A stretch of 64,000 bases of DNA from an uncultured Oleiphilaceae bacterium (GTDB taxonomy: Bacteria; Pseudomonadota; Gammaproteobacteria; Pseudomonadales; Oleiphilaceae): contig CAJXUY010000001.1 of assembly GCA_913060665.1 (NCBI GenBank), positions 62,001 to 126,000 of the forward strand, written 5' to 3'. Position 1 is the stretch's first letter, and each line of letters opens with the position of its first letter. Made by a program: the position numbers and the translations under genes. This document shows, one piece after another, positions 22,766 through 61,491 of the stretch. The notes beneath the pieces are model-generated. The model saw only the letters and a program-made list of their open reading frames with translations. It was not told where the DNA came from and made no database searches.

Positions 22766-23782
22766 TTATGATTGATCATTTAACAGACTCGTTATTCGGT
22801 TAATTAATGGATGGCCAACGTTGTCATTAAATAACTGCCCCTCATCGATGTACTCCCAAACTATTGTGTCACTTTTCCAGCCTCCTTGCTTTTTGATCGT
22901 CTCAAAATCTACGTCTTCTCGTGCGGAACTCGTGGCTAACCCTCGACGAAAGCTGTGGCTACTTAAATCAGCTACAAAGTCAAAGCCGCAAGCTTTACCT
23001 ATCACTTTTAACAAATCATTGATCGAACCGGGACTCATCGCTTTCGGTTGCAACTGCCCCCAACGATTTACCGGTCTGAATACGGGGCCTTCTGTAATAT
23101 CTGAGTCAGCAAGCCATTCCTTCAGAGAAGTGACTGGGCAGATAGTTTTATTTCCATAAGGAATAGCCCTTTGCATGCCCTTTCCTTCTTGATCTGTTTT
23201 AGATTTAGGCAGTTCAATAATGAGCCCTTCAGACTCCCAGCTAAGATGCCCTACTTCTATCATTACTAATTCACTGCGACGAAACCCGCCAAAGTACGCA
23301 ATGAGCAGAAGCGCCTTGTCGCGTGTTCTTTTTATTGATGGCGCTTGTTGCTTCAAGTGGGTAAGCATGGTGACCATGTCTTGCAAGCGTAATGCTTGTG
23401 CTTTCTTTTTGGGCTTACCGTGAGTTCTGCCAATGCCCTTTAGTGTTTTTCTTGCTGTTGGGTCTTGGACTGGGTCATTAAAACCCTGAAACCGATGCCA
23501 CTGGCTGAGTGCTGTTAATCTCACTTCTAATGTGCGTGTATTTAAGCTTTCTGCATGTTCAACCAAGTAGCGAATTAAGGTTTCACTGTCTGTGGGGAGT
23601 CGCCCGCCCCATCGTTCAAAGTGGCGAATAGCTGAGCGGTAGGTTTTACGAGTATTGTCTGACGTTGCAGCTTGAAGGTACTGCTGATGTTTTACTTCTA
23701 ACGTTGGCAACGACGAGGCCCCGCCAGATAACAAATCATTTTTACTGCCTAGTTGTTTTGAATCGTTATCTATTTCTTTCAT
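22766..23782 (-). CDS. Tyrosine recombinase/integrase (left copy of the island-flanking pair)
   Basis: A 338-residue site-specific recombinase with an N-terminal SAM-like domain (about 30-115: NTRKTYRSAIRHFERW) and a catalytic domain. Visible active-site elements are Arg in GGFRRSELV, Lys in PKSKTDQEGKG, the HxxR box in SSHSFRRGLA, GGWKSD and Tyr in VWEYIDEG. The gene is intact. A closely related copy, cut by a transposon, lies at 60583-61491 in the same orientation; the two enclose the 38-kb hydrocarbon island. A 31-bp repeat about 85 bases upstream (23868-23898), also found at 6901-6931, may be its binding or attachment site. Confidence 0.92.
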   Translation of the reverse strand: MKEIDNDSKQLGSKNDLLSGGASSLPTLEVKHQQYLQAATSDNTRKTYRSAIRHFERWGGRLPTDSETLIRYLVEHAESLNTRTLEVRLTALSQWHRFQGFNDPVQDPTARKTLKGIGRTHGKPKKKAQALRLQDMVTMLTHLKQQAPSIKRTRDKALLLIAYFGGFRRSELVMIEVGHLSWESEGLIIELPKSKTDQEGKGMQRAIPYGNKTICPVTSLKEWLADSDITEGPVFRPVNRWGQLQPKAMSPGSINDLLKVIGKACGFDFVADLSSHSFRRGLATSSAREDVDFETIKKQGGWKSDTIVWEYIDEGQLFNDNVGHPLINRITSLLNDQS

Positions 23783-23867
23783 GGCGCTAAATCTCTCGTA
23801 TTCTGCTTTTGTACTGCCGTTACAGCGAGTTTGTTAAATAATACTAATTATAACCTACGATAATCAC

Positions 23868-23898
23868 TGATAACGAATGGATGAGTATTTTTAGCTTA
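23868..23898 (+). repeat. 31-bp direct repeat, copy 2 (att-like)
   Basis: Partner of 6901-6931 (28 of 31 identical). It lies in the 5' flank of the minus-strand recombinase gene. Confidence 0.5.
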
Positions 23899-24113
23899 TA
23901 ATATTTGCATTACCTTAATGCGAATGAATATTAATTGCTATACGCCAAAACTACGACCTTTTGGAATAAACCCTAGCTGAGTGATATGTAAATAATTCTC
24001 ATTTGCTAAAAGCAATTTAGTCTGTTTGTTTAAAAATAGCCCTTAAATAAAGATAACTAACCGTGCTTTTATATAAATCGTACACGGTACACAGGGATAT
24101 AGAAGACAAGTTA

Positions 24114-24124
24114 CCCCCCCCCCC
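24114..24124. repeat. C11 homopolymer tract in the promoter region of the desaturase operon
   Basis: Eleven consecutive C residues, 174 bases upstream of the reductase start, within an otherwise AT-rich gene-free stretch (23783-24298). Long homopolymers in promoter regions can vary in length by slipped-strand mispairing. The stretch otherwise holds the 31-bp repeat and the dyad at 24223-24240. Confidence 0.75.
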
Positions 24125-24222
24125 TACTTTATAGGTAATAAAACTAAATATTTACTTCATCTCACACTACGAAATGATAGTTCTCACCCCTTATTAGTCA
24201 AAATAAGCCCTACCATACACTC

Positions 24223-24240
24223 AGTGTACACTTGTATACT
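24223..24240 (+). promoter_or_regulatory. DesT/FabR-like operator dyad
   Basis: AGTGTAC-ACTT-GTATACT is a near-perfect dyad with a 4-base centre. It closely follows the Pseudomonas DesT operator pattern (AGTGAAC-GCTT-GTTGACT), which governs the desCB acyl-CoA desaturase genes. The same gene types lie directly downstream, starting at 24299. No desT gene is visible in the window. Confidence 0.55.
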
Positions 24241-24298
24241 TAAGGTCTTTAAAACATAGAATCTAAACAAAAAAGAAGACTACCAAGGTGTAATTAAA

Positions 24299-25408
24299 AT
24301 GCGAACACTACAAGCCTTTTCCAACAAATTTTGGCAGCATAATGGACAACTACAAAACTATATTGACTTTATATTATGTGAAATAGACCCTCTCTTTAGT
24401 CGCCAGCGCATTGGTGCTGAAGTTTTTCAAATTATCAATGAAGCAGAAAATACAAAAACATTCATACTACGCCCACCTAGTCGCTGGGAGGGTTTCAAAC
24501 CAGGGCAGTATATAAGCGTTGAGCTTGAAATTAATGGCGTTAGAATGCGTCGTAATTATTCTATTTCATCATCTCCCAAGCTATTCAGAGAAAAACAACT
24601 TTTCAGCATTACGGTAAAGGAAATTGATGGAGGCATTGTATCCACTTATTTAAATAATGGCGTTCAAACTAAGGATGTAGTTTATATAAGTGCAGCTAGT
24701 GGTAGTTTTGGTATGGATGATTTGCAGAGTATTGACACAAACGTCCCCTTATCGAGTACGCTATTTGTTGCTGCCGGAAGTGGAATTACGCCTATTATGT
24801 CAATGATTGAGCACATCAAAGAATATAACCCTGACACTGTATTTACTTTAGTTTATTACACCACTAATAAAGAGCAGCAAATCTTTTCAAAGCGATTAAA
24901 TGGGCTTAAGGATTTACTGCCAAACTTTTCATTTATTCCCCACTTAACGGAGAGTGAAGGCTATATAACAAAAGAACAACTAAAATCCGATTGCCCCGAT
25001 ATTACTACACGAAACATATACCTTTGTGGCCCACAAGCTTTTATGGATTCAACTAAGGAATATGCTTCTGATTTAGGCGTTTCTGATACAGCACTAAAAT
25101 TTGAAAGTTTTGGATCATCACCAAATACTTTAACTTATAACTCTGAGAAAGAAGGTGTAGTTAATTTTACACAGTCAGGTAACTCCATCCAGTCAAAGGG
25201 TGATAAAACACTACTGGAACTCGCTGAGCTTTCAGGGCTTAACCCAAAATACGGTTGTCGTAATGGCATCTGCTTTGAGTGTAAATGCAGTCGTATTGAT
25301 GGACAAGTATTGAACAGGTTAACAGGTGAATTAATTCCGGAAGATCAAAGCCAAATTCAATCTTGCATATCTGTACCCGTTGGAAATGTATCAATTAGCG
25401 ATTTATAA
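24299..25408 (+). CDS. Ferredoxin-type reductase for fatty-acid desaturase (DesC-like)
   Basis: A 369-residue electron-transfer protein. The FAD-binding domain carries RRNYSISSSP near residue 83, the NAD(P)H-binding domain has AAGSGITPIMSMI and YLCGPQAFM, and the C-terminal plant-type [2Fe-2S] domain has ligands in YGCRNGICFECKC plus a later Cys in QSCIS. It would pass electrons from NAD(P)H to the di-iron desaturase encoded 20 bases downstream. The order reductase-desaturase and the upstream DesT-like dyad match Pseudomonas desCB. Acting on acyl-CoAs, the pair would adjust membrane unsaturation, useful when growing on hydrocarbons. Confidence 0.86.
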   Translation: MRTLQAFSNKFWQHNGQLQNYIDFILCEIDPLFSRQRIGAEVFQIINEAENTKTFILRPPSRWEGFKPGQYISVELEINGVRMRRNYSISSSPKLFREKQLFSITVKEIDGGIVSTYLNNGVQTKDVVYISAASGSFGMDDLQSIDTNVPLSSTLFVAAGSGITPIMSMIEHIKEYNPDTVFTLVYYTTNKEQQIFSKRLNGLKDLLPNFSFIPHLTESEGYITKEQLKSDCPDITTRNIYLCGPQAFMDSTKEYASDLGVSDTALKFESFGSSPNTLTYNSEKEGVVNFTQSGNSIQSKGDKTLLELAELSGLNPKYGCRNGICFECKCSRIDGQVLNRLTGELIPEDQSQIQSCISVPVGNVSISDL

Positions 25409-25427
25409 ATATTAAAAAGGTAACGTC

Positions 25428-26564
25428 ATGAACAGTAAAGTTAAACAACCAGATTTACTTAATGAATATAAATTCTCTAAAAGCGAACTCAGTTCAAATT
25501 CACTAACTAAAAGTGAGCTTGATGCATTTGGTGATGAAATAGATCAACTTAAGAAAGAGGCCATTGCAGACTTAGGACAAAGGGATGCAGACTATATACG
25601 GAGTATTGTTCGAAAGCAGCGATATAGTGAAATTTCAGGTAGAGCATTAATTCATTTCAGCTTAGACCCCATTTCCTGGGCTGTTGGTGTAGGTTTACTC
25701 TCAGTTTCAAAAATATTAGAGAATATGGAAATTGGTCATAATGTGATGCATGGCCAGTATGACTGGATGAATGACCCAAAACTCTACTCTCAAACGTACG
25801 AATGGGATAATAACTGCGATAGTGATTCATGGAGGAAAACACATAATTATGAGCACCATACTTATACAAATATAATCGGGCAAGATCGAGATTATGGGTA
25901 TGGGATACTTCGCTTAAGTGATGACACACCTTGGAAGCCTAGGCATTTATTTAATTTCCTTACCTATGGTGTTTTAAGTGCATTCTTTCAGTCAGGTGTA
26001 GGCGTACATGAACTTGAAATTGAAAAAGTAGCCAGTGGTGAGGTTTCACTAAAAGAAAAGAAACCCATGCTAAAGGCTTTTTTTAAGAAGGTTAGCAAAC
26101 AAACACTTAAAGATTATATTATATTTCCATTACTTGCTGGCCCAATGGCACTTAAAGTTATAGCGGGAAATGCATTAGCTAATCTAGCGCGTAATTTATG
26201 GACTTCAACAGTTATCTTTTGTGGACATTTCACTGAAAATTCTCATACTTTTCACGATGTTGATTATGAAAATGAAACGCGTGGTGAATGGTACTATCGT
26301 CAAATTTTGGGTTCAGGTAACTTTACAGGTGGAAAATGGCTTCATATTATGTCAGGAAACCTAAGCTATCAAATTGAACATCACATGTTTCCTGATGTCC
26401 CCGCCCATCGATACGAAGAAATGTCACCCAAGGTACAGGATATATGTAAAAAATACGGCATTGCATACAATACTGGAGGCTTTTGGAGTCAATATAAGAC
26501 AGTACTTGCAAGAGTTGCTCGCTACTCACTGCCACCCAGAAAAGCTAATGCACAGCTAGCTTGA
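25428..26564 (+). CDS. Membrane fatty-acid (acyl-CoA) desaturase, DesB-like
   Basis: A 378-residue membrane di-iron desaturase. The three His boxes are present: HNVMH near residue 105, HNYEHH near 142 and QIEHH near 315; an FTENSHTF segment adds a further His. Two long hydrophobic regions (about 70-95 and 230-270) form the membrane hairpins. There is no cytochrome b5 domain, in line with use of the separate reductase upstream. It is probably a Delta-9-type acyl-CoA desaturase by similarity of motif spacing to DesB/DesA3; position specificity cannot be read from sequence. Confidence 0.88.
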   Translation: MNSKVKQPDLLNEYKFSKSELSSNSLTKSELDAFGDEIDQLKKEAIADLGQRDADYIRSIVRKQRYSEISGRALIHFSLDPISWAVGVGLLSVSKILENMEIGHNVMHGQYDWMNDPKLYSQTYEWDNNCDSDSWRKTHNYEHHTYTNIIGQDRDYGYGILRLSDDTPWKPRHLFNFLTYGVLSAFFQSGVGVHELEIEKVASGEVSLKEKKPMLKAFFKKVSKQTLKDYIIFPLLAGPMALKVIAGNALANLARNLWTSTVIFCGHFTENSHTFHDVDYENETRGEWYYRQILGSGNFTGGKWLHIMSGNLSYQIEHHMFPDVPAHRYEEMSPKVQDICKKYGIAYNTGGFWSQYKTVLARVARYSLPPRKANAQLA

Positions 26565-26584
26565 TTATAAATGGAGCTATTAGA

Positions 26585-26881
26585 ATGCCAGATATAGTGA
26601 AGAACCTAAGGGGTACAAATAATTTTGTTTATACCACAGTCGATAGCATTGTCTCAGCAACACAAAGTGTACACTTTGTTATATCAGATACTGGTTATAA
26701 GATACTTAATGAAAGTATAGTTGAGCCCGATAAACTTAATATATTGAAAAAAACACATGATGATATAGCCCACGAAATATATGGTGCTATTCGCGACATA
26801 AACATAACTTTAAATAACTTTGTCAGGAGCTGTATTAAACCACTTAGTAGAGGCGAAAATAATATAACTAACAAAAAATAA
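26585..26881 (+). CDS. Small protein of unknown function in the desaturase operon
   Basis: A 98-residue product starting at the ATG at 26585 with a GGAG ribosome site. The sequence (MPDIVKNLRGTNNFVYTTVD, then a mostly helical part rich in Ile and Asn) shows no signal peptide, no Cys cluster and no motif I recognise. It begins 20 bases after the desaturase stop on the same strand and is followed by a hairpin terminator, so it closes the desCB-like operon. Confidence 0.55.
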   Translation: MPDIVKNLRGTNNFVYTTVDSIVSATQSVHFVISDTGYKILNESIVEPDKLNILKKTHDDIAHEIYGAIRDINITLNNFVRSCIKPLSRGENNITNKK

Positions 26882-26896
26882 TTCATGTTAATGTTT

Positions 26897-26922
26897 AGAG
26901 GCTCTTATTTTTCAGAGCCTCT
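26897..26922. terminator. Hairpin terminator after the desaturase operon
   Basis: AGAGGCTCT (26897-26905) pairs perfectly with AGAGCCTCT (26914-26922) around an 8-base loop rich in T. It separates the plus-strand operon from a convergent minus-strand relic. Confidence 0.6.
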
Positions 26923-26933
26923 GGTACTGATTA

Positions 26934-27293
26934 TTATTTAAGAAAACTGAGTCTTGCTAGGTTTAGAATATTTAAAAACTCGCTGAACCACAGTTGTGTA
27001 TTGATGAAAAAAGATCCCGTATTATAAGGAATACCCTGTTTTTCTAAGACAACTTTTACTTTTTCTGACATTTCCGGATAACGACCTATAACCTCTGAGC
27101 GATAGCCTTCAGTTGACCAGCCAGGTAAAAAAGGCTGTATTAAAGGCTCATAAAATGATGAGAGCTTTGGATTGTTAACTAAGGATTTTGAAAATAACTG
27201 CCAGACACGTTCAAGCTTAATGGAATGAATATCAGTTTTCAGTGATTGTTTATTTCTATTTCCATATGATTTTTTTGTATTCCCTGCTTTCAT
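26934..27293 (-). pseudogene. Fusion relic of a second reductase-desaturase gene pair
   Basis: About 119 residues in one frame. The first part (FSKSLVNNPKLSSFY..GYRSEVIG) aligns with the N-terminus of the reductase at 24299 (FSNKFWQHNGQLQNYIDFI..GAEVFQ). The last part (RYPEMSEKVKVVLEKQGIPYNTGSF) aligns with the C-terminus of the desaturase at 25428 (RYEEMSPKVQDICKKYGIAYNTGGF). Everything between, both catalytic domains, is absent. An internal deletion of about 2 kb that happened to keep frame would create it. The product would be inactive. Confidence 0.75.
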
Positions 27294-27492
27294 AAAACAC
27301 CCTATTTTGATTTTATATTTTTGCTTTAACCGCAATCAAAAACAACAGAACTTTAGATAGGTTTAGACGTAACAATTACTGTAAAACCATACTTTTTTTA
27401 GGGTGTTTATATAAAGAAAATTTATTATATTTAATTTCAGTTAATTCATAAACTAATACAATTTTTGAACAATAAGTTCAGTGGAGGAAATA

Positions 27493-27858
27493 ATGCCAAT
27501 ACATGAATACTTTTTAGGTTCAAAAAAAAATAATAACGTTCCCTACACTTATCATGCACAAGAGCGAGTTATAGAGGGTGAGGATATATTTACAAAAGAC
27601 TGGTTTTGCGACACTTTGTGCGGTCTCTGTAATCACTTATTAAAGTTAAGTAAAGACCCACTGGATATACGGATATTTGAGTGTTTCAACAACGGCCCTG
27701 ATATAGAAATGCCAAAGCACTTTTACATGGATGAAAGTGGAAAATGGCTACAAAAAAAGGAATTATGCAATGCTCATCTTCGATACGGTTCATTCGGTGC
27801 AGGCTCAGAAGGAAACTGCGAATTCATTAATAGAAACATGTTCAAAATAATCTCCTAA
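27493..27858 (+). CDS. Small Cys-containing protein of unknown function
   Basis: A 121-residue product starting at ATG 27493 with a strong GGAGG ribosome site. It has no signal peptide or membrane segment. Notable is DWFCDTLCGLCNHLL (CxxxCxxC), which could bind a metal or form disulfides, and a conserved-looking tail with HLRYGSFGAGSEGNCEFINR. No family is recognised. It lies 21 bases upstream of the OmpW-like gene on the same strand, so they are probably co-transcribed. Confidence 0.65.
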   Translation: MPIHEYFLGSKKNNNVPYTYHAQERVIEGEDIFTKDWFCDTLCGLCNHLLKLSKDPLDIRIFECFNNGPDIEMPKHFYMDESGKWLQKKELCNAHLRYGSFGAGSEGNCEFINRNMFKIIS

Positions 27859-27879
27859 TAATTAGGGAAGGAAAGTAAA

Positions 27880-28623
27880 ATGATCAAAAGAAACATGATG
27901 ACCTCATTACTAGCAAGCACATTACTGTTGAGTCAGTCTGCTCTAGCTTACGAGGTGGGTGACATATTTATAAAAGGGGGTGTCGTTACTGTTGATCCAC
28001 AAGAAAGTAGCTCTGACATCAGAATTACTAGCCCAAATCTGGGTGATGCTACTGGCGCAAAAGTTGGCTTAGATTCTGATATTCAACTTGGTTTAGTTTT
28101 CACTTATATGGCAACAGATCGGGTAGGTATTGAATTATTAGCTGCAACGCCTTTTGAACATAATATTTCAGGCGCAGGCGTTATATCCAGTGCAGGTACA
28201 CTTGGTAGTACAAAACACCTGCCACCGACATTGAGTGTACAATATTATCTGGCAGACCCTGCAGATAAGTTTCAGCCTTACATTGGTGCTGGCATTAATT
28301 ACACTATCTTTTTTGATGAAGATACATCACCAACATTAACGGCGGCTATCGGCCCTTTAGCAGAGCTTGCAGGTGCTCCAGCAGGCGCAGTAGAAGCAAC
28401 AAGCACAAAATTAGCTATTGAAGACTCGATAGGGGCATCATTACAAGTTGGATTTAACTACGAGATTACTGACAACATAGGTTTAAATGCGGCGGTATGG
28501 TGGATGAATATTGATGCAGAAGCTGAAATTACAGCACAAACAAACATAGGAACAGTAAAGGCAAAGGTTGATGTAGAAATTGACCCATATGTTTACATGC
28601 TCGGTGCTTATTACAAATTTTAA
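27880..28623 (+). CDS. OmpW/AlkL-family outer-membrane channel
   Basis: A 247-residue eight-stranded beta-barrel protein. The signal peptide (residues 1-23) ends SALA-YEVGD. Family markers are the opening GDIFIKGGVVTVDP, GLVFTYMATDRVGIELLAATPFEH, PPTLSVQYYL near the centre and the closing aromatic YYKF. AlkL, an OmpW homologue, lets alkanes and other hydrophobic compounds cross the outer membrane in alk systems, and the surrounding genes suggest the same job here. It ends just before a terminator shared with the convergent DUF1329 gene. Confidence 0.9.
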   Translation: MIKRNMMTSLLASTLLLSQSALAYEVGDIFIKGGVVTVDPQESSSDIRITSPNLGDATGAKVGLDSDIQLGLVFTYMATDRVGIELLAATPFEHNISGAGVISSAGTLGSTKHLPPTLSVQYYLADPADKFQPYIGAGINYTIFFDEDTSPTLTAAIGPLAELAGAPAGAVEATSTKLAIEDSIGASLQVGFNYEITDNIGLNAAVWWMNIDAEAEITAQTNIGTVKAKVDVEIDPYVYMLGAYYKF

Positions 28624-28637
28624 ATGTGTTGAAAAAG

Positions 28638-28672
28638 GACCGAGCGTGAACAGAGACAAGTTCAGCTCGGTC
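28638..28672 (-). terminator. Bidirectional terminator between the OmpW and DUF1329 genes
   Basis: GACCGAGC and GCTCGGTC with inner TGAAC/GTTCA pairing form a long stem with one bulged base. On the minus strand it is followed by CTTTTTC, a good intrinsic terminator for the DUF1302-DUF1329 operon. Confidence 0.75.
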
Positions 28673-28683
28673 AAATGCGCTAC

Positions 28684-30036
28684 TTAGCGCTTGCCCGCGC
28701 GTCTAAGCGCCGACGGAGTGTAGTCTTTAGATGACCGCTCTAGATTAAATGTATAAGCTTCATCTCGGCCGTTTTGCAAACCTCTTACCAAATAACGACC
28801 TGAGAGCAAGTCATATAATGTCTCTAGGGTGTACCAAGGTACCATCTCTCTGTAAAAGGTCATGCTATGGGCTTCAGCAACACGCCATAACTCTCCCCTA
28901 CCATCATAGTGATCAATAATAGCGGCCTGCCAGGTATCTTCATCAATATAAAAAGTTCTTTTTGCATAGATATGTCGAGTGTCTTTTTTCAAGCTGGCTT
29001 CAACAACCCAAACTCTATGTAGTTCATAGCGAGTATGCACCTGATTAATATGACCCCGCTTAATAATATCATCGGGCTTTAGGTTACCGAAATGAAGGCT
29101 AAATGAGTTATAAGGAATATATATTTCTTTCTTCCCTATTAATTTCCAGTTGTATCTATCTGGCGACCCGTTATACATGTCTAAATTATCAGTGGTCGAA
29201 AGACCATCCGATGCTGTACCGGGACCATCATAAGATACCTGTGGGGCCCGCCTGACTCGACGCTGCCCAGCATTATAAACCCAGGCTCTTCGTGGCTCCT
29301 TAACCTGGTCAACTGTTTCGTGAACAAGCAGTACATTTCCTGCTAAACGAGCTGGAGACTGAATAAGCTGTTTAAAATAGAACAGAACATTAGCGTCTAT
29401 TTCCGGATCATAATCTTTCAAAGATGTTCGCCAGGTTATCTCATCTTGAAATTGAATTATTGAATACTTTCCGTTAGAAAGTGGAGCGGCTTGCCCAATG
29501 AGTCTTCTTACAGAACCGCCACGGTAGCGAGTAATATGATTCCAAATAACCTCTAACCCATTATGAGGAATAGGAAATGGGATTGAGATATCAAAGGGTG
29601 TTAAGCCATTACCTCCATCCAGCAACTCAACATTAGTTGCATTATTTTTTGCACCATCATAAACAAATTGAGGATATGCAGCAGATCGTCTACTTTGGTA
29701 CACTGGGAGCTTGTAATGAGGATACTTTGTCATCATAGCCATCTGACCGGGTGACAAGTTATCTTTATACTTATGCATATTGCTTTTATCGATCATTAAC
29801 AAAATCTGATCATCAGGGAACGGGTTACCACTTGCAACGCCTGCGCTTTCCACTGTAAGTCCACCCACCCACTCAGGGATAGTGCCCGCTGCATTGCCTG
29901 CTTTCTCTGCACCAATTGGCGTTAACTCTACCCCTAGCTTGGCTGCATCTGCCACCAAAACCTTTGCCAGCACATTCATTGCGAGTAAAGAAAGCGTCAT
30001 TACCCCGCCAGCCATAATTATTTTTATTAGTTTCAT
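28684..30036 (-). CDS. DUF1329 outer-membrane-associated protein
   Basis: A 450-residue exported protein; the signal peptide spans about residues 1-25. It shows the DUF1329 marks: AAKLGVELTPIGAEKAGNAAGTIPEW at the start of the mature protein, YDGPGTASDGLSTTDNLDMYNGSPDRYNWKLIGKKEIYIPYN in the middle and the RTFYIDEDTWQ strand. LolB-like folds are predicted for the family. These proteins occur next to DUF1302 proteins in hydrocarbon and steroid clusters and are thought to help move hydrophobic compounds between the membranes. It is the last gene of its operon. Confidence 0.9.
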   Translation of the reverse strand: MKLIKIIMAGGVMTLSLLAMNVLAKVLVADAAKLGVELTPIGAEKAGNAAGTIPEWVGGLTVESAGVASGNPFPDDQILLMIDKSNMHKYKDNLSPGQMAMMTKYPHYKLPVYQSRRSAAYPQFVYDGAKNNATNVELLDGGNGLTPFDISIPFPIPHNGLEVIWNHITRYRGGSVRRLIGQAAPLSNGKYSIIQFQDEITWRTSLKDYDPEIDANVLFYFKQLIQSPARLAGNVLLVHETVDQVKEPRRAWVYNAGQRRVRRAPQVSYDGPGTASDGLSTTDNLDMYNGSPDRYNWKLIGKKEIYIPYNSFSLHFGNLKPDDIIKRGHINQVHTRYELHRVWVVEASLKKDTRHIYAKRTFYIDEDTWQAAIIDHYDGRGELWRVAEAHSMTFYREMVPWYTLETLYDLLSGRYLVRGLQNGRDEAYTFNLERSSKDYTPSALRRAGKR

Positions 30037-30088
30037 TGATTAACCTCGTTAGAGCAAAACTGTTATATTTATTATTAGTATCAATAAA

Positions 30089-35509: not shown

Positions 35510-35514
35510 ATTAA

Positions 35515-36726: not shown

Positions 36727-37754
36727 ATGAGTTTAAAAAAAGTGCAACTCCCCGGAACTTATTTATTAGCATTATCCGAATGCATGACAGATTTCGGCAT
36801 AGATCACTCAAGATGGTTGGCTGGGTGCGAATTGTCGACAATCGACACCAGTATTGTGCATGAATCAATAGACTTCATTGTATTTAAGGAGTTATTAATA
36901 AGGGCAGTAAAGTTATCTAACAACCCCGCTTTGGGCATTTCTTTAGGTCAAAGACTGTCTTTGCCATCACACGGGGTACTTGGCTATGCACTTATGAATA
37001 GCATGAACTTGCTTTCTGCTGTGAAGCTTTTAGAGCAATACATAACTATTCGCATGCCATTAATTGAGCTAAGAACTTACAATCAAGGAGATGATTTTGT
37101 TTTGCAGTTCGATGAGATGGAACCTCTGGATGATCTTAAAATTGTTATTTTTGATGCCTTACTCGTTACGATTAAAGCGGCATTAGATCAATTATTACCC
37201 AATTTAAAAGCAGACCTTACTTTTTGCTTCCCTTTGTCTATGCATAGAAACACGCCATATGGAAATTTAAGTGAATCTACCCTTCTATTTAATCAATCTA
37301 CAGCTTCAATTAGAATAAATAAAGGTATCATTAATGAGCCTATCCCTTTTGCAAACTTAGCAGCTTATATGGAGGCTGAAGCATTATGCAGAAAGGAGTT
37401 AAAGGCGTTATCTCATGAATCTACTTATAAAAGCAGTATTAAAAAAAGCTTATTGAAGATACAGAACAATTTCCAATGCAAGAAGTAATGGCCTCTTGGT
37501 TTAACCTGACCCCTAGAACCTTACACCGGCGATTAGTTGCAGAGGGAACCTCATATAGTAAGATTTTAGAAGAAGTTAAGAAATCTCTGGCCGCGTCGTA
37601 TCTATCAAACAGCAAACTAACCATTAAAGAAATTTCATATTTTCTTGGTTATGAAGATGTTCGTAATTTCAGACGAGCATTCAAGCGATGGTATGGGGTA
37701 TCGCCCTCTTCTTTTCGTGAAAGTAATTCAATTTTGAATATTGAAGACAAATAG
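36727..37754 (+). pseudogene. AraC-family regulator, split by a one-base frameshift
   Basis: The first 240 or so residues form the arabinose-binding-like N-terminal domain of OruR/ArgR-like AraC regulators (SLGQRLSLPSHGVLGYALMNS; FCFPLSMHRNTPYG). The HTH domain continues in another frame (SWFNLTPRTLHRRLVAEGTSY..ISYFLGYEDVRNFRRAFKRWYGVSPSSFR). At 37469-37475 the frame reads NNFQCKK-stop. One extra C in TTCCAATG restores NNFPMQEVMASWFNLTPRTL, so a single-base loss explains the split. It faces the XylMA-like operon across the repeat-bearing promoter and was probably its activator. Sequencing error is possible. Confidence 0.85.
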
Positions 37755-53547: not shown

Positions 53548-53724
53548 TTACTCAACAAGAAAAAAATCAGATTTTGATGCCGAACACTCAGGGCAAGTCC
53601 AATCATCAGGAATATCTTCAAATCGTGTGCCTGGAGCTATCCCCTCTTCAGGAAAACCAATTTCCTCATCATAAATAAGATCACAGGTCACGCAGCAATA
53701 TTTTTTATATGGGACAACATTCAT
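53548..53724 (-). CDS. Rubredoxin (second of two, adjacent to alkT)
   Basis: A 58-residue iron-sulfur protein too short for routine calling. Two Cys pairs bind the iron: Cys11-x2-Cys14 (CVTC, preceded by an extra Cys10) and Cys44-x2-Cys47 (CPEC). The rubredoxin core [32 protein letters not shown] is complete. It carries electrons from AlkT to AlkB. The motif resembles the electron-transferring AlkG2 class; the tail SKSDFFLVE is short. The start ATG at 53724 lies 83 bases from the neighbouring rubredoxin gene. Confidence 0.9.
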
Positions 53725-53807
53725 ACAAACACCTTAAAATATTTAACCGTAAAAATTTATTAACTAAACTTGTATGGCCAACTTGAATGTTAGCCATACA
53801 AATACAC

Positions 53808-53975
53808 CTAACCTTCTTTCAATACAAAATCAGGCTTTTCCCTTACAAAACAGTCAGGGCAAGGAAAATCTTCAGGAAGGTCTTCCCATTTTGATCCGGC
53901 AGGATAACCCTCATGCTCAGCTCCAATAGCCTCATCATAAATATAACCACAATCTGGACACTCATATTTTTTCAT
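53808..53975 (-). CDS. alkG: Rubredoxin (first of two)
   Basis: A 55-residue rubredoxin starting at ATG 53975 with a GGAGAG ribosome site. It carries YECPDCGYIYDEAIGAEHEGYPAGSKWEDLPEDFPCPDC with both CxxC iron-binding pairs and the usual Tyr-Asp-aromatic core. A longer upstream frame exists but would add a non-homologous leader. It sits between a small membrane-protein gene and the second rubredoxin. One of the two probably serves AlkB and the other may be redundant or serve another partner. Confidence 0.9.
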   Translation of the reverse strand: MKKYECPDCGYIYDEAIGAEHEGYPAGSKWEDLPEDFPCPDCFVREKPDFVLKEG

Positions 53976-54013
53976 TATTAATCTCTCCACATCATTTTTA
54001 ATATGCATACTCA

Positions 54014-54361
54014 TCAATTGACTGTAACCAACGAATACATCAAAACACCAATACAAGTTAATGCAAACGTTCCGTGAGCTGCAATTAACATGAAAGGTGT
54101 TCTCCTGCTTTTAAACCATTTACCGAATATCAGGAATGCACCTACAAGCAACAAAGCAAACAAGCCTAATGCAATCCATCCCCAGTCACTCCAATACCCT
54201 CGAACTAGACCAGCCAACAAAATCACAAACCCGAGAACCCCGGCTAGGCCATGCGAGCCAATCAACCAACGGCTTATTTTCTTCCCTTGTTTTCGGCGTT
54301 TAACAAGATATAAACCACAAAAAGCGACCAGCATAAAAACAATAAGCGCCAAAAATTGCAT
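54014..54361 (-). CDS. Small four-helix membrane protein in the alk operon
   Basis: A 115-residue protein with four predicted membrane helices (about residues 2-20, 34-50, 60-80 and 90-112). Conserved-looking His residues lie in helix 2 (GSHGLAGVLGF) and helix 4 (AAHGTFALT), each in an H-G context, which could bind haem or metal. No named family is recognised. It lies between alkB and the rubredoxins on the same strand, so it may help electron transfer or assembly of AlkB; that is inference. Confidence 0.65.
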   Translation of the reverse strand: MQFLALIVFMLVAFCGLYLVKRRKQGKKISRWLIGSHGLAGVLGFVILLAGLVRGYWSDWGWIALGLFALLLVGAFLIFGKWFKSRRTPFMLIAAHGTFALTCIGVLMYSLVTVN

Positions 54362-54385
54362 ACATACCTCTTATTAAAAGTAAGC

Positions 54386-54404
54386 AGTGGGCAGCATACC
54401 CACT
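54386..54404 (-). promoter_or_regulatory. Intergenic hairpin after alkB (possible attenuator)
   Basis: AGTGGG (54386-54391) pairs with CCCACT (54399-54404) around a seven-base loop, and on the minus strand is followed by CTTTTAATAAG. It could lower expression of the genes after alkB or mark an RNA processing point. Confidence 0.4.
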
Positions 54405-54416
54405 ACCAGTGCATTT

Positions 54417-55625
54417 TTACGCTGCCGCTTTAGGATTGTGATAACGCTTAAAAACTTCATCGCGCATATCAGGGTCGATATTTACTTTATTCATATCGCC
54501 TTCTGCCCAGCTAACTACTTTAGGGTTCATTAACGAAAACCATGCTGAAGGAAACATTGATACAAAGAACATCCAAGGGTATCCAGAAGGTAATGCTGGC
54601 ACTTCAGGGAAATCTCTCAACACTTGATAAGGACGCGTTGGGTGAGCATGGTGGTCGGAGTGTCGCTGCAAATGAAGCAAAACTAAGTTAGATGCTTTAT
54701 GATTACTATTCCATGAATGCTTAGGCTGACACCGCTCATATCGTCCATTTTTATCTTTCAAACGAAGCAGGCCGTAGTGCTCAACATAATTGGCACAGGT
54801 AAGCTGCCACCAACCGAATGCCGCTGCAATCATAAGGAAAGGAATCATAATCGGACCAAAGTAAGCTAGCATTAAAGTGTAGGCTGCCACAGTAACTAAT
54901 GCAGGCTGTATAATCTCATTACTCAATGACCATTCAGACTTACCTAAACGATGTAATCTAGCAGTTTCAAGCTCCCAGGCGCGTCTGAAAGCCCCTGGAA
55001 TTTCTCTGCGCACAAACTTATAAATAGTTTCACCGAATTTTGAAGAAGCTGGATCTTCAGGCGTTGCTACATCTTTATGATGACCTTTATTATGCTCTAT
55101 AAAGAAGTGGCCGTATCCACTACAAGCAAGTACTAGCTTTGCACACAAAACCTGGCCTTTATCATTTACCTTATGGCCCATCTCGTGCCCAGCAACCAAC
55201 GCTACGCCATTTGCAATACCTGCACTTAAGGCACCACCCAATATACTAAACCAAGAAAAATCAAACTGTGATACGACATACGCCATACCTACAAGTGAAG
55301 CCCAATGCATAGCTGTTGCACCATACATAACATAAACATAGTATCTACTTGATTGAAGCTCTTCGACCAGTTCATCACTTGGATTTGCACGATCAATGCC
55401 CGCCAAATAATCAATAAATGGCAAAATGGCGTACATCACTGCAACCATAAACCATAACAATAGACCGTAACCCGTTTGCACCGCAAAAAAAGCAGACACT
55501 AGAGGAATTGCAGGGAGAGCTATAGAAGTTAAGTACCAATAACGCTTACTCTTTATCCAAGCACTATCTTGATCACTTACAGGAGCAGAAGCCGCCACTT
55601 CTACCACATTGGGATTTTTTGTCAT
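54417..55625 (-). CDS. alkB: Alkane 1-monooxygenase AlkB
   Basis: A 402-residue integral-membrane di-iron alkane hydroxylase with six membrane helices. All His motifs are canonical: HEMGHK starting at His147, EHNKGHHKDVATPEDPASS with His178-His183, LQRHSDHHAHPTRPYQ around His322, and the NYVEHYGLLR box. It inserts oxygen at the terminal carbon of medium- to long-chain alkanes, fed by rubredoxin. It is the first gene of the alk operon; its promoter lies in the 400-base gap before the divergent LysR-type gene. Confidence 0.96.
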   Translation of the reverse strand: MTKNPNVVEVAASAPVSDQDSAWIKSKRYWYLTSIALPAIPLVSAFFAVQTGYGLLLWFMVAVMYAILPFIDYLAGIDRANPSDELVEELQSSRYYVYVMYGATAMHWASLVGMAYVVSQFDFSWFSILGGALSAGIANGVALVAGHEMGHKVNDKGQVLCAKLVLACSGYGHFFIEHNKGHHKDVATPEDPASSKFGETIYKFVRREIPGAFRRAWELETARLHRLGKSEWSLSNEIIQPALVTVAAYTLMLAYFGPIMIPFLMIAAAFGWWQLTCANYVEHYGLLRLKDKNGRYERCQPKHSWNSNHKASNLVLLHLQRHSDHHAHPTRPYQVLRDFPEVPALPSGYPWMFFVSMFPSAWFSLMNPKVVSWAEGDMNKVNIDPDMRDEVFKRYHNPKAAA

Positions 55626-56024
55626 ACATCACCTATCAAGTATTTAATATGATTATTTGAGCTACCGAACCCAAACTATGCCATACCATAACTTTTTGTA
55701 GACCTAACAAAAGATTGGGTAACAATAATATAAATTAAATATTTTACTAAACACTTTATAATCAGTATGTTATTAATTACTTTTTTTTAAAAATTAACAA
55801 ATTTTACATTTACAGTGCTTAAGAATATTAGAAATCCCTCCCTCAAACCGTCTATCTACCCCACCTTACAATTTAAGCTATTGCTGACAAGCCAAAAAAA
55901 AGATATGACATATGTTTCTTTTCATGATCGAAAGAAGGTAACCTGAGTAGTACCTTAAATACCCTTCAAATTATTTATATTTCTGTAGAGTTGAGACTTA
56001 ATAGTTATAACTGGAGAGCCCAGA
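55626..56024. other. Divergent promoter region between alkB and the LysR-type gene
   Basis: About 400 AT-rich bases without a reading frame. It must hold the alkB promoter (minus) and the LysR gene promoter (plus). GGAG upstream of 56025 is the ribosome site of the LysR gene. I could not assign an AlkS or LysR box with confidence. Confidence 0.55.
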
Positions 56025-56936
56025 ATGCAGTTGCCTCACGATTTGCCCTCATTGAACCTACTCAGAGTATTTGAAACTGCAGGACGCTATTTAAGTTTCA
56101 AAAAAGCAGCTGAAACACTCTGTGTAACCCCTCCTGCAGTAAGCCAACAGGTAAAAACGCTTGAAGGGCAACTAGGCATTCCTCTTTTCATTCGAAAAAA
56201 TCGTGAGCTCGCATTTACTGAAGCGGGAGAACAATACTGGCGGCAAATTAACACTCAACTAAATCAGCTTCGACAAGCAACCGCGACCTTAAGAAAAGAC
56301 TACAGCCATCGCGTGCTTAAAATCAGTTTAATGCCTCCGGTCGCAAGCCGGGTTGTATTACCAAACCTTGAATCTTTCCATAAAGAATGCCCAGATATTG
56401 AGCTTCGCATTGAGACATCATTACGCAATGCTGATGTTTTAACCCAGCAAGTAGACTTAGCCATACGCTTTGGCGAGCCCCCATGGGAGGGATTACTTCA
56501 TGAAAAATTAATTGATGCGTATATTCAGGTAGTTTGCCCTCCCGGAACCAGTGAAAAGTATCAATTAAAACAAGCACCAAAGAATTTCTGTAATGTGCCC
56601 TTGATCCATATGACTGAGCGACCTCATGCATGGCAGCGCTGGTTTGAAATAACCGGGGTTGGGGAACCAACAGGGCAGAAGTATTATCTGGACGATTACC
56701 CGGCTGCAATGGAAGCGGCAGAATCACTGGGTGCAATGCTAGCACTTATGCCAGTTGAACTCCCCCTGATAAACAGCGGACGGGTTGAAGCGCCCTTTCC
56801 TGCTCTTGAGCCACTTGATGAGTCTATTTATGCGGTTTACCACAAGAATAATAAAGATGATATAGCCATTCGTTCGTTCATTAACTGGTTATTGCAGCAA
56901 TTTAACAGCTTAAAGATAAAGCCGTCTCACATCTAA
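56025..56936 (+). CDS. LysR-type regulator (GcvA-like)
   Basis: A 303-residue regulator. The N-terminal winged HTH is LNLLRVFETAGRYLSFKKAAETLCVTPPAVSQQVKTLEGQLGIPLFIR, of the GcvA/AmpR subgroup. The C-terminal co-inducer domain has VASRVVLPNLESFHKECPDIELRIE and a YLDDYPAAMEAAESLGAMLALMPVE segment. It is divergent from alkB, so it may influence that promoter, but the effector is unknown. The ATG is preceded by GGAG. Confidence 0.88.
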   Translation: MQLPHDLPSLNLLRVFETAGRYLSFKKAAETLCVTPPAVSQQVKTLEGQLGIPLFIRKNRELAFTEAGEQYWRQINTQLNQLRQATATLRKDYSHRVLKISLMPPVASRVVLPNLESFHKECPDIELRIETSLRNADVLTQQVDLAIRFGEPPWEGLLHEKLIDAYIQVVCPPGTSEKYQLKQAPKNFCNVPLIHMTERPHAWQRWFEITGVGEPTGQKYYLDDYPAAMEAAESLGAMLALMPVELPLINSGRVEAPFPALEPLDESIYAVYHKNNKDDIAIRSFINWLLQQFNSLKIKPSHI

Positions 56937-57041
56937 GCATACGCCCCAAATATTGACAGAATGAACTCAGGAGCTTGTGTAATAAACGTATTGCCTATCA
57001 AGCTATAGGCAGAAAAACTCGTTTGTCATCGCGACACAGGG

Positions 57042-57137
57042 TGCTTTTTGAATATTCCCAGTGGAGTAAATTTAAATTTGAAAGAATCTCTTGATGGGCT
57101 TCCCCGAACCAGAACTAAGTATATTGATCGTTGTTAA
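57042..57137 (+). pseudogene. C-terminal relic of a DUF6160-like gene
   Basis: About 31 residues, FLNIPSGVNLNLKESLDGLP and RTRTKYIDRC, match the C-terminus of the gene at 32972-34210 (FINIPNGLTLNLKESLDGIP, RARTEYIDRG). The reading frame has no start and no upstream homology, so only the tail survives. It still has a terminator behind it. Confidence 0.75.
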
Positions 57138-57147
57138 TAAGCTACTT

Positions 57148-57193
57148 AAATACAATGTCAGGTAAGTTATTATTATCTGACATTGTATTTTTT
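57148..57193 (+). terminator. Intrinsic terminator after the DUF6160-like relic
   Basis: AAATACAATGTCAG (57148-57161) pairs perfectly with CTGACATTGTATTT (57177-57190), with a T run extending to 57193. It is a strong terminator on the plus strand. Confidence 0.8.
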
Positions 57194-57271
57194 CTCGTTT
57201 GTCAACGCCAAAGTGTTTTCGTATATTGTGCATAAACCAACCAATTATATATATTCAGTATTGGAGAACAC

Positions 57272-57778
57272 ATGACTGCAGTAGCACAAACCCTAAGCTC
57301 CTTTGACCCGAACAGTTTATTAAAACACTCACAAAAAGAGTTAGACGAGTTATTTCAAACACTGCCCTCGCTTAAAGAAGGCGAGCTTAATGGTGTCTAC
57401 CGAGGTCGCTTATTTGCCATTATAGGACTTGGTACTCTACCCGTGTTTTTACGTAATTTGCTTTACCGCCTGCTTCAAACTTTCATTAATCCTTGGAAAG
57501 GGAAGCGATTCGATGGCAAGAGCGGAGCAAATATCTGGTTTTCAAAAAAGGGAACCCTACCCTACGGATACTATACGATTAATTCAGAAGGTAGTGCCGT
57601 AGATGGGGAACCTGTTACTCATTTATCGTATGACATTGATAAGAATTTAAAACTATTACGCCCTGTACGAGGTGAAACAAGAAAGCTTTCAGATGGAGTC
57701 TATCTTGCAAGAATGAATTATCAAACACGTAAGAAGTTAGTTCGAGTTTTATATTTCACCTTAGATAATATTGGCTAG
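57272..57778 (+). CDS. GXWXG/DUF4334-like protein preceding a GMC oxidoreductase
   Basis: A 168-residue protein. The N-terminal part LDELFQTLPSLKEGELNGVYRGRLFAI has the G-x-aromatic-x-G core of the GXWXG family, and the later RFDGKSGANIWF and YYTINSEGSAVDGEPVTHLSYD fit the linked DUF4334 part. Function is unknown; members occur near redox enzymes of lipid or steroid metabolism. It is followed 16 bases later by the GMC gene on the same strand, and the two probably form one operon with the AhpD-like gene. Confidence 0.68.
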   Translation: MTAVAQTLSSFDPNSLLKHSQKELDELFQTLPSLKEGELNGVYRGRLFAIIGLGTLPVFLRNLLYRLLQTFINPWKGKRFDGKSGANIWFSKKGTLPYGYYTINSEGSAVDGEPVTHLSYDIDKNLKLLRPVRGETRKLSDGVYLARMNYQTRKKLVRVLYFTLDNIG

Positions 57779-57794
57779 ATTTCGGAACTTTATA

Positions 57795-59259
57795 ATGACA
57801 AACAAATACGATGTTATAGTAATTGGGAGCGGTTTTGGCGGCTCGGTTTCATCTTATCACCTTGCTAAAGCAGGTGCTAAGGTACTTCTACTGGAAAGAG
57901 GCCCCTGGCGTGATACAGAGCCGGTACGCGCAATGGGGATAGAAAAACGAAGCCCTTTACCTGCGGGGCGACATTTTTACACACACATACTTAATCGTTT
58001 TAGTGCTCCTTGGCTGCCCAAGACCGGAATAAAAATAAACAAACAGGGCTTGTTCGATATTCATTACGATCGGGATATGAGTGTAGTGTGCTCTTCTGGT
58101 GTGGGGGGGGGTAGTCATGTTTATAGTGCAATGAATATGCGACCCGCAGTAGGACGCGTATTGGGATAACCATGTTGATGGTGTTGGTACTGATATGATG
58201 GAGCCACACTATCAATGGATGATTAATAAAATGGGGGCTCGCCCCCCTACCCTTGATGATAATATTCCTAACTTTACAGGTAAACATTATGAAGACTCGT
58301 CACACTTTGTGGCAGATGAGAGTATTCAACAACCTGCAATGAGTATGGATATGTCTTCAAGCCCTGAAAACTTTAGTAATAATAGTTTTTTTGGTTGTAA
58401 GGGTGGGTCTAAAGCGACGTTAGATCAAACCTTATTGTTACCGGCAATTAACGCGGGGCTCGAAGTAAAAGCGTTACAGGAATGTCTGGGCATTTATCGC
58501 ATTGATGGTCCTTCAGCAACTAGTTATCGACTAGATGTAATGGACCACCAAACTAAACGCCATACATATTATCAAACCGACCGTGTCATTTTAGCGACTG
58601 GAACCTTAAATACTCAGCGTTTGTTATTTCGTAGTCGCGATAGTGGTGGTTTGTCAGGAATGCCTGCACTGGGTTGTAACTTTGGTGGTAATGGTGACTT
58701 CCTAGCCTATTGGGCTACGAACGAAAAAAATGCCGATTTTAGTATAGGAACGCCCAGTCATGGCCGGTTTGAACTACGCGATTACCCTTCATGCCCAAAT
58801 CTCACAGAATACGGTATGAGCGGTATAGATGATGTCCCCCTTATTGGGAGTGTTGTGAGAAATCGCTTGAAGCGTGACCTGGTATTAGTCGGCATGGGAG
58901 CAGATCGTGCAAATGGTGCCTTTACTTGGAAAAACGGGCGGCTACGCACCCGTTATATTCAACACAATAACCCCATTATAGGAACTATTTCTAAAGCTTT
59001 TGAAGAAATTACCCATCGCAGCGGAAAAAAAGTCTGGTTCACCAATAAGCGATTACTCACTGTTCATCCCCTAGGTGGTGCAAGACTAGCTTCAAACCAA
59101 AATGATGGCGTTATTAATGAGCAAGGGGAAGTTTATGGTAATCCGGGTTTGTTTATAGCTGATGCATCAGCGTTGCCTGCCGCTCCAGGCTCACCCCCAT
59201 CAATGACCATTGCCGCATGGGCATGCCATGTTTCACAAACCATTAGCAACAAAATTTAA
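57795..59259 (+). pseudogene. GMC oxidoreductase (cholesterol-oxidase-like), frameshifted
   Basis: The first part (57795 to about 58160) has the FAD motif YDVIVIGSGFGGSVSSYHLA and CSSGVGGGSHVYSAMNMRPA. The rest continues in another frame from YWDNHVDGVGTDMMEPHYQW to the C-terminal HPLGGARLAS and GLFIADASALPAAPGSPPSMTI. The frame changes between a TAG at about 58152 and TAT at 58159. A nine-G run at 58103-58111 is upstream of the break and is in frame on both sides, so it is not the cause. Without the shift the protein would be near 488 residues, normal for the family. It may oxidise a sterol or fatty alcohol. Confidence 0.82.
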
Positions 59260-59274
59260 AAAAGGAGTCAAAAT

Positions 59275-59862
59275 ATGACTACATTTAGAAAAAGAGTATT
59301 CACACCAGCTACATTTATAATAAGCCTTTCAAAGGCTGTAATTTACTCTCCCCTATTGATAAAAGCACTAATCAAGCCTGCAACATCCCGCGCATTACGT
59401 GAGAAAGTGATGCTCTCAACAACCTCTGTTAATGATTGTCGTTACTGTTCATGGGTGCATACTAATCTTGCTTTACAGAACGGGGTAGACCTTGATGAGC
59501 TAAACCAAATTCTAAGTGGTGTTACCGGGGATTTAAATAATGATAAAGAAGCGGTGGCTGTTATTTTTGCGCAGCATTTTGCTGAACAACAAGGTAAACC
59601 TGAAACCAATCTAAAAGGACAACTTAACGCAGTATTTAATGGCAAACAAAAACGAGAAATAATGGCTTACATCCATGCGATTTATTTTTCAAACCTTTCT
59701 GGAAACACGTTTGATGCGTTACTCGCGCGTTTTAAAGGAGATAAAGTGGTAGACAGTCAATTTTGGTTTGAGGTCGTTTCCTCTTTGATTAGCTGGCCAA
59801 TATTTACTGCTATTATGTTAAGTTCAAGGAAAAGCAAGGGCACCAAGTTAGATGTATTGTAG
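59275..59862 (+). CDS. AhpD-like/carboxymuconolactone-decarboxylase-family protein
   Basis: A 195-residue helical protein. The AhpD-like redox motif CRYCSWVH (CxxC with a following His) sits near residue 56, within TTSVNDCRYCSWVHTNLALQNG. A hydrophobic segment (about 165-185) near the C-terminus may anchor it. Such proteins are peroxidase-type or unknown redox partners. It follows the GMC gene by 15 bases and would be its partner or protect against peroxide made by that oxidase; that is inference. Confidence 0.78.
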   Translation: MTTFRKRVFTPATFIISLSKAVIYSPLLIKALIKPATSRALREKVMLSTTSVNDCRYCSWVHTNLALQNGVDLDELNQILSGVTGDLNNDKEAVAVIFAQHFAEQQGKPETNLKGQLNAVFNGKQKREIMAYIHAIYFSNLSGNTFDALLARFKGDKVVDSQFWFEVVSSLISWPIFTAIMLSSRKSKGTKLDVL

Positions 59863-60009
59863 GAATCTATATTATAAGTCTAATGTGCTGGCTGCCTCCT
59901 GTTGGAAAGGTAGTGAAGCTTCGAAAAAAAACAAACAACTGCGTATGGAAAAATAAATATTTAAAAAAAGGCCTTCTTCGCATGGAAATGAAGTAAAGTT
60001 TAGGTTCTA

Positions 60010-60575
60010 GGCAGTTAATGAAAAAGCTGCAAGATAAGGCTTTTAGATTGGTCGTGATAAAGTTATTCGTTTGATGGGCAAGCTTGGTTTAAAAGTTAAA
60101 CAGCGTATTGCTTATAAAGTGACAACGATACGCAAGCACAGTTGTAGTGTTGCCGATAATATAGTCGACCATCAATTTAACCCAAAACAAACAAATCAAA
60201 TTTAGGCAGGTGATGTGACCTTCCTCAGAGCAGGTCAAGGCTGGATACACTTAGCGTTTGCTATGGGTTTATTCTCTCACCGAATTATCGGTTGGTCAAT
60301 TCATAAACGTATGACTGTTGATTTAGTTGAACGAGCCATGAAAGTGGTTTTGAACCTCCGCCCCCAATTAAAGTGCTGATATTTCATAGCGACAGAGGGT
60401 CACAATATACCAATCATCGTTTTCAGCAACAGTTAAAAAGTAATAATACCCCCTTAACGAATGGTCGTGTTGCATGCAGGGGTACTGTTGCTGAACGATT
60501 TTTCAGTAGATTGAAAAACGGATGGCTCGCTAAATTATTGACTTGTAGAAATCACATACAAATTATAGTTCGCTA
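60010..60575 (+). pseudogene. IS3-family transposase relic
   Basis: The DDE part of an IS3 OrfB is recognisable but broken by frame changes and stops. GDVTFLRAGQGWIHLAFAMG carries the first Asp, HSDRGSQYT the second and VAERFFSRLKNGW the Glu. The preceding RVIRLMGKLGLKVKQRIAYKVTT piece is the helix-turn-helix. No terminal inverted repeats were found. It lies just left of the recombinase relic. Confidence 0.85.
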
Positions 60576-60582
60576 ATCAATT

Positions 60583-61491
60583 TTAGTGTTTAATTATCTC
60601 TATCATTTGATTAATTAGAGTATGTGTTACATTGTCATTAAATAGTCGACCCTCATCGATATACTCCCAAACTGTAGCATCGCTCTTCCATTCACCTTGT
60701 TTTTTAATCATTTCAAAATCGACACCTTCACGAGCAGCACTCGTTGCTAGGCCTATTCGAAAACTATGGCTACTTAAATCAGCTACAAAGTCAAAGCCGC
60801 AAGCTTTACCTATCACTTTTAACAAATCATTGATCGAACCGGGACTCATCGCTTTCGGTTGCAACTGCCCCCAACGATTTACCGGTCTGAATACGGGGCC
60901 TTCTGTAATATCTGAGTCAGCAAGCCATTCCTTCAGAGAAGTGACTGGGCAGATAGTTTTATTTCCATAAGGAATAGCCTTTTGCATGCCCTTTCCTTCT
61001 TGATCTGTTTTAGATTTAGGCAGTTCAATAATAAGTCCTTCGGGCTCCCAGATAAGATGCCCCACTTCTATCATTACTAATTCACTTCGACGAAATCCGC
61101 CAAAGTAAGCGATGAGCAGAAGCGCCTTGTCCCGTGTTCTTTTTAATGACGGAGGTTGTTGGTTCAAGTGGGCAAGCATGGTGACCATGTCTTGCAAGCG
61201 TAACGCTTGTGCTTTTTTCTTGGGCTTACCGTGGGTTCTGCTAATCCCCTTTAGTGTTTTTCTTACCGTTGGATCTTGGGCTGGATCATTAAAACCCTGA
61301 AAACGATGCCATTGGCTGAGTGCAGTCAATCTCACTTCTAAGGTACGTGTATTTAAACTTTCGGCATGGCCTACCAAGTAGCGAATTAAAGTTTCATTGT
61401 CTGTGGGTAGCTGTCCGCCCCAGCGCTCGAAATGGCGAATGGCTGAGCGGTAAGTTTTACGAGTATTTTCAGACGTGGCAGCTTGCAGGTA
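60583..61491 (-). pseudogene. Tyrosine recombinase, right copy, cut by a Tn3-family transposon
   Basis: A near twin of the gene at 22766-23782, in the same orientation. Residues corresponding to Tyr35 through the C-terminus are in frame (YLQAATSENTRKTYRSA..). The first 34 codons are missing because the Tn3 element begins at 61492. The HxxR box (HSFRIGLA), the WEYIDEG Tyr box and the FRRSELV Arg are retained. A 213-base stretch is identical with the left copy. A start at an internal ATG (61377) would give a 264-residue product lacking much of the core-binding domain. Confidence 0.9.

Follow-up and report, generated by a model that had tools for sequence, protein, structure and literature searches.

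A hydrocarbon-oxidation cluster between two directly repeated tnpS genes, probable relics of Tn4651-type transposons, in an uncultured Oleiphilaceae bacterium

Introduction

Transposons of the Tn4651 subgroup of the Tn3 family, known from the catabolic transposons of TOL plasmids, carry tnpS, tnpT and the resolution site rst. TnpS is described as one half of a TnpS+TnpT resolvase acting at rst, which lies between the two genes (PMC7157771). Within rst, a core palindrome serves TnpS and an accessory one TnpT (PMC4619425). Here we analyze a locus of an uncultured Oleiphilaceae bacterium (GenBank assembly GCA_913060665.1; 4.39 Mb, 34 contigs) in which two tyrosine recombinase genes bracket 38 kb of hydrocarbon-oxidation genes. 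The window under study is a stretch of 64,000 nt (G000:C1:62001-126000, contig CAJXUY010000001.1); coordinates prefixed with C1 are contig coordinates, all others are window coordinates, and G003 and G004 are congeners. A sequence-only reading of the window had described the bracketed segment as an island that the intact left recombinase could excise. We propose that the bracketing genes are probably two tnpS relics of Tn4651-type transposons in a mosaic hot spot, and that the bracket is not a recombinase-driven island.

The locus shares with the Tn4651 subgroup the type of tnpS, a combination of catabolic and metal cargo and, at a third tnpS copy, a divergent tnpT with a palindromic rst. It differs in that the bracketing copies are without tnpT, retain at most part of rst and can be assigned neither a cognate tnpA nor inverted ends; moreover, the cargo is of the alk type here, whereas it is xyl in the subgroup. 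In the available part of PMC3606827, the partial Tn4651-like transposon of Halomonas pZM3H1 likewise combines tnpS with metal-resistance cassettes and is without its tnpA end, but it keeps tnpT and a hairpin resolution site, and that part names no hydrocarbon genes. TnXocp1 and its relatives (PMC4619425) also associate tnpA, tnpS and tnpT with passenger genes, which may even be located between tnpS and tnpT, at the place of rst; TnXocp1, of 18.8 kb, has tnpT and both rst palindromes, whereas tnpT has been lost at the bracketing copies described here. Our literature searches turned up no account of the present element, which does not prove that none exists.

Results

Identity of the two recombinase genes

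The left gene, tnpS-L (22766-23782, minus strand), encodes an intact tyrosine recombinase of 338 aa (PF00589, E 1.3e-16). The right gene, tnpS-R (60583-61491, minus strand), is related and truncated (PF00589, E 1.2e-14 for its 264-aa open reading frame, ORF). With 88.8% identity over 887 nt and a spacing of 37,811 nt, they form the sole direct-repeat family of at least 40 nt found in the window. The positions, common orientation and offset given in the sequence-only reading were therefore confirmed and both genes are real. However, tnpS-R is broken, starting at about codon 35, where it abuts a Tn3 inverted repeat at 61492, so that about 34 codons are lost, and a third tnpS in the same orientation lies 51 kb past tnpS-R (C1:174903-175913). 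Same-orientation pairs of tnpS also occur elsewhere, 21 kb apart in G013 (L131-L132) and 53 kb apart on contig C53 of G004 (L049-L051); direct repeats of this gene are not unique to this genome.

In tnpS-L, residues that we take to be the R, HxxR, W and Y catalytic motifs align with those of the TnpS proteins of pIP40a and Alteromonas. A tblastn search of plasmids with the tnpS-L protein gave relatives up to 60.9% identical among the matches listed. In seven of eight annotated plasmid loci, the tnpS homolog adjoins a divergent gene for a tnpT-like DNA-binding protein (Halomonas pZM3H1, Marinobacter, P. putida ND6, Alteromonas, Shewanella, pIP40a and pADP-1); no tnpT is annotated in the eighth, from Glaciecola, where tblastn detects a tnpT fragment. 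The pair of Halomonas pZM3H1 has been assigned to tnpS and tnpT of a Tn4651-related transposon (PMC3606827). Three loci hold the set of tnpT, tnpS, cargo and tnpA within inverted repeats (Alteromonas, 34/36; Shewanella, 35/36; pIP40a, 35/36), and the same test found no enclosing repeats at the tnpS-tnpT locus of G003. The usual order, common to Glaciecola, Alteromonas, Shewanella and pIP40a, is a leftward tnpT, rst, a rightward tnpS, cargo and a rightward tnpA.

The interval between tnpS and tnpT repeatedly contains a palindrome of 12 + 6 + 12 nt, corresponding to the rst core. The palindrome scores 18-22 of 22 in 10 of the 12 scored loci other than the left copy and does not reach this range in two; three loci with no usable upstream DNA (L013 and L053, at the same contig end, and L019, cut by its contig) were left out of the scoring. 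By eye, an imperfect palindrome is visible in seven of ten further loci, the remaining three being without it. When the core was used as a search pattern on 390 genomes of the order, we retrieved 28 sites in 24 genomes, against one site in one genome for the reversed control. At the loci examined, one per genome, tnpS and tnpT flanked the core on opposite sides in 21 out of 24, one of these being the third copy of this genome; tnpT alone was found at two and neither gene at one. As a probe for tnpS/tnpT loci in this order, the pattern thus gives few chance matches. The core with neither gene within 1.5 kb is an rst-like sequence at L127 (G183:C3:48304).

Because their homologs adjoin a divergent tnpT, with a palindromic rst core in between, and because three of these lie inside Tn3 transposons bounded by inverted repeats, the bracketing genes are, as judged from homology and gene order, copies of tnpS, the cointegrate resolvase gene of Tn4651-type Tn3 transposons. 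The third copy is part of a full set (C1:174903-177154) of complete tnpS, rst core and divergent tnpT, the product of which matches KfrA_N.

Resolution sites at the bracketing copies

At the left copy, the tnpS-side arm of rst is preserved (23852-23863, minus strand, with the spacer position at 23864-23869) and the distal arm has been replaced, the two arms scoring 11/11 and 5/11 positions, respectively. At 23863, the sequence ceases to be homologous to the third copy and G003. A TnpS crossover with a foreign site would be expected to leave a break at this place, where arm and spacer meet; a single break, however, proves nothing. No rst arm was found at the right copy. In C1:1-226000, tblastn detected tnpT at the third copy only and not at the bracketing ones, and a search of the whole genome for rst cores with up to two mismatches returned a single site, again at the third copy. 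The bracketing copies therefore comprise a TnpS-type recombinase with neither divergent tnpT nor complete rst core, and 22766-61491 does not have sites for its own recombinase at both ends, as an integrase-driven island would. This establishes the absence of a site pair for excision of the 38 kb, and suggests that TnpS does not function there. Since tnpT is gone, rst is partial or absent and the sole core within two mismatches lies at the third copy, TnpS-driven excision of the segment appears unlikely, contrary to the proposal of a catabolic module that could be transferred or lost through the action of the left recombinase.

Homologous exchange between the copies

Divergence between the two copies amounts to 27% before 22956 and to 11% after 23168, and is zero over the 213 nt in between (22956-23168, identical with 60767-60979 of the right copy). 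None of 20,000 shuffles reached an identical run of 213 nt, the longest being 123 nt, or 111 nt when codons were preserved, and no other tnpS pair compared reached 100% in the windows of this tract. Such identity in an otherwise diverged pair shows that the bracketing copies have recombined, although gene conversion and crossover are not distinguishable. Comparison with the third copy, G003 and G004 did not resolve the donor of the tract. The earlier suggestion of recombination between the direct repeats is thus plausible as ordinary homologous recombination and not as a recombinase-driven event; RecA could possibly still delete the 38 kb.

Comparison with related genomes

Both outer flanks of the hot spot are common to G003 and this genome, as are several inner blocks, namely C1:56669-58125 (99.7% identity), two blocks in 137971-142582 (97 and 99%), 150009-177150 (86-87%) and 195089-199199 (97%). 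G003 is without about 80 kb (C1:58125-137971) that hold the metal genes, the left copy, the hydrocarbon genes, the right copy and a 14-kb Tn3 element, apart from short blocks matching paralogous parts and blocks of 72-73% in the Tn3 element. Because this region contains the metal genes together with both copies and the 38 kb, the strain-specific block relative to G003 is wider than the bracket, and the view that the copies are the ends of an acquired unit is not supported.

The whole 38-kb segment was not found in four congeners, which contain scattered homologs only, and no congener with an empty arrangement was found. The sequence-only reading had held that relatives carrying the same genes in place with neither recombinase would count against it; none of the four congeners was found to do so for the whole segment. 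G004, however, has 56040-59658 (3.6 kb, with LysR, GMC-type and CMD genes) at 87-89% DNA identity; this block lies at the end of a contig, and the 15.4 kb inspected there contain no tnpS. The right half of the segment was searched in the 390 genomes of the order, giving two others at E 1e-60 (two candidates scored per genome), and the left half was searched within the genus.

Tn3-type boundaries around the bracket

The truncated end of tnpS-R adjoins a Tn3-family element of 14,247 bp, of which the window contains the left part (61492-64000, plus strand; the element ends at window-equivalent 75738). Its inverted repeats match at 35/36 positions and its tnpA starts at 61583. No target duplication was found, so a deletion or other rearrangement probably followed insertion.

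We scanned C1:1-226000 for inverted ends anchored on GGGG (381 x 564 compared), which gave four pairs matching at 24/36 or more. The second-best pair (30/36) bounds a stretch of 152,991 bp, C1:56583-209573, that contains the whole window (1-64000) and is flanked on both sides by the 5-bp duplication TTAAA. When its flanks are joined, a single frame of 413 aa results, which aligns in one piece, from residue 1 or 2 to 413, with integrases at 69.6% and 70.0% identity; the alignment continues across the junction and has a single-residue gap a few positions from it. The stretch thus shows the marks of a Tn3 insertion, with inverted ends of about 38 bp starting with GGGG, a 5-bp duplication and a restored target, and from the reconstructed frame it is evident that a 153-kb stretch with Tn3-type ends interrupts an integrase gene. 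It is a better-supported boundary than the 38-kb bracket. In the congeners, the flanks gave partial, unlinked matches only; for this reason the empty site is deduced from the reading frame and its homologs. The right end is followed inward, after 193 bp, by the start of a 986-aa TnpA, which is a candidate for acting on these ends; the ends of its relatives differ in sequence.

We are inclined, though not strongly, to read this bracket as a compact Tn3 element of about 3.2 kb that entered the integrase gene and was later split by about 150 kb of other elements, without ever being one moving unit. The start of the 986-aa TnpA is placed relative to the right end much as it is in two compact 3.2-kb relatives in which tnpA fills the element (the end-to-end distance is 3.9 and 5.8 kb in two other relatives), and about 46 bp inside the left end lies the terminus of another integrase element, which recurs with other outside DNA in G003, in G004 and elsewhere in C1. 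Furthermore, G003 has several of the inner blocks without the 153-kb ends in the 140 kb searched. Against this, the region near the tnpA stop revealed no second end of the inserted DNA, and shared repeats there do not exceed 9 nt.

The gene associated with the integrase terminus encodes a 420-aa tyrosine integrase of another kind, below the Pfam cut-off, found outside the bracket at 14849-16111 and in a second copy at C1:56773-58035. The copies have a common left terminus, GGTTCTGGA..., with different DNA outside at the two places in C1, in G003 and in G004, so that the terminus looks like the end of another integrase element.

Genes between and around the copies

ORF and family searches of the segment between the copies (23864-60570) revealed three membrane proteins of the FA_desaturase fold (at 25428, 34325 and 54417), a rubredoxin, a rubredoxin reductase, two ferredoxin-type reductases, an aldehyde dehydrogenase, a choline-dehydrogenase-like GMC oxidoreductase, a MalT-like regulator, an RND pump, DUF1302 and DUF1329. 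Only the GMC oxidoreductase, one of nine segment proteins scanned, reached a curated NCBIfam cut-off; the substrates and the names "alkane and aromatic hydroxylase" (AlkB, XylM, AlkS) are therefore presumptive. The claim that all hydroxylase genes, their regulators and the RND pump lie inside the bracket held for the oxidation-type genes, the MalT-like regulator and one pump, with presumptive hydroxylase identities, and did not hold for a second RND trio (OEP, HlyD and AcrB families) outside it at 1031-6642. The metal genes do lie outside, as had been noted, with MerR and MerT to the left. At 36727-37754, a regulator that is AraC-like by eye is split into two overlapping frames (36727-37488 and 37476-37754), perhaps by a frameshift. 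Next to tnpS-R is an apparent transposase remnant (60010-60576, plus strand; ORF 60373-60576), which we take to be of IS3 type from its peptide rather than from a family search.

To the left of the metal genes, a Tn3-family TnpA of 1030 aa (10435-13527, minus strand; PF01526, PF13700) points the same way as tnpS-L. We rejected it as the partner of tnpS-L, as no tnpS was found near 10 related loci (with short flanks) and a plasmid relative adjoins a serine-type recombinase. An IS66-family element (7448-9871, transposase ORFs 7458-9793) splits a block that is contiguous at window-equivalent 89338-90116.

A 38-nt direct repeat at 6894-6931 and 23861-23898 is identical at 33/38 positions (86.8%, BLAST), and its second unit begins at the remaining rst arm; the repeat search found two in the real sequence and none in 100 shuffles. 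It has just two copies in the genome and was not found in 150 other genomes of the family or in the viral contigs searched, and its surroundings gave no plasmid match. The repeat is real, but these searches gave no support for reading it as the ends of a 17-kb metal module. An island at a tRNA gene was rejected, there being no tRNA gene in the window.

Discussion

We consider it likely that Tn3-family and integrase elements accumulated in one hot spot and that the bracket is what remains of two Tn4651-type transposons there. By the usual gene order, the metal genes would occupy the cargo position belonging to tnpS-L, and the hydrocarbon genes the one belonging to tnpS-R. The left copy has kept one rst arm and lost the remainder of rst together with tnpT, and the right copy has been cut where the 14-kb Tn3 element now begins. 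The two copies have exchanged sequence by homologous recombination, and loss of the 38 kb through RecA is still conceivable. As for the size of the 153-kb stretch, both a single unit and a later enlargement may be considered.

Several observations weigh against this explanation. The tnpS-L gene is intact, and its product could work in trans or at sites of an unrecognized kind; a complete tnpS-rst-tnpT set is present at the third copy. No inverted ends surround tnpS-L or tnpS-R in the GGGG-anchored scan, and neither can be assigned a tnpA partner, since relatives of the 1030-aa TnpA adjoin a serine-type "recombinase family protein" (serine resolvases). In G003, tnpA lies on the tnpT side, contrary to the usual order. 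Finally, the break at the left rst arm is a single event, and the 38-nt direct repeat that starts at this arm is unexplained.

An account of origin that is compatible with leftover tnpS genes, although we hold it to be rather unlikely, is that a hydrocarbon circle carrying one tnpS entered an existing tnpS by a RecA crossover, thereby creating the direct repeat, with the identical tract marking the exchange. The 213 nt of identity, with flanks that are 73% and 89% identical, would fit such an event, but gene conversion explains the tract equally well, and the third copy, G003 and G004 give no indication of which halves belong together.

It is also doubtful, and a little more so, that the 153 kb inserted as one Tn3-family transposon that is still able to move. 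Catabolic transposons such as Tn4653 and Tn4676 are about 70 kb long, so a single 153-kb transposon would be about twice the size of these members, and it would hold alkane- and aromatic-type oxidation genes, metal genes, a full TnpS/TnpT/rst set and a TnpA at one end. Least probable by far is the island of the sequence-only reading, in which the intact left recombinase, with its catalytic residues, excises the 38 kb as a circle between two direct copies of 89% identity and can reinsert it: the segment is indeed not found whole in congeners, but there is no site pair (one arm at the left, none at the right and one core within two mismatches in the genome), neither bracketing copy has tnpT, and the strain-specific block is about 80 kb and not 38 kb.

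In summary, the locus adds a new case to those in which Tn4651-type and other Tn3-family elements carry catabolic cargo. Directly repeated tyrosine recombinase genes around a catabolic cluster can mimic an excisable island and are better read here as resolvase relics of stacked Tn3-family transposons. The alk-type cluster is thereby placed inside a Tn3-bounded chromosomal insertion, which bears on the gain and loss of oil degradation in this group.

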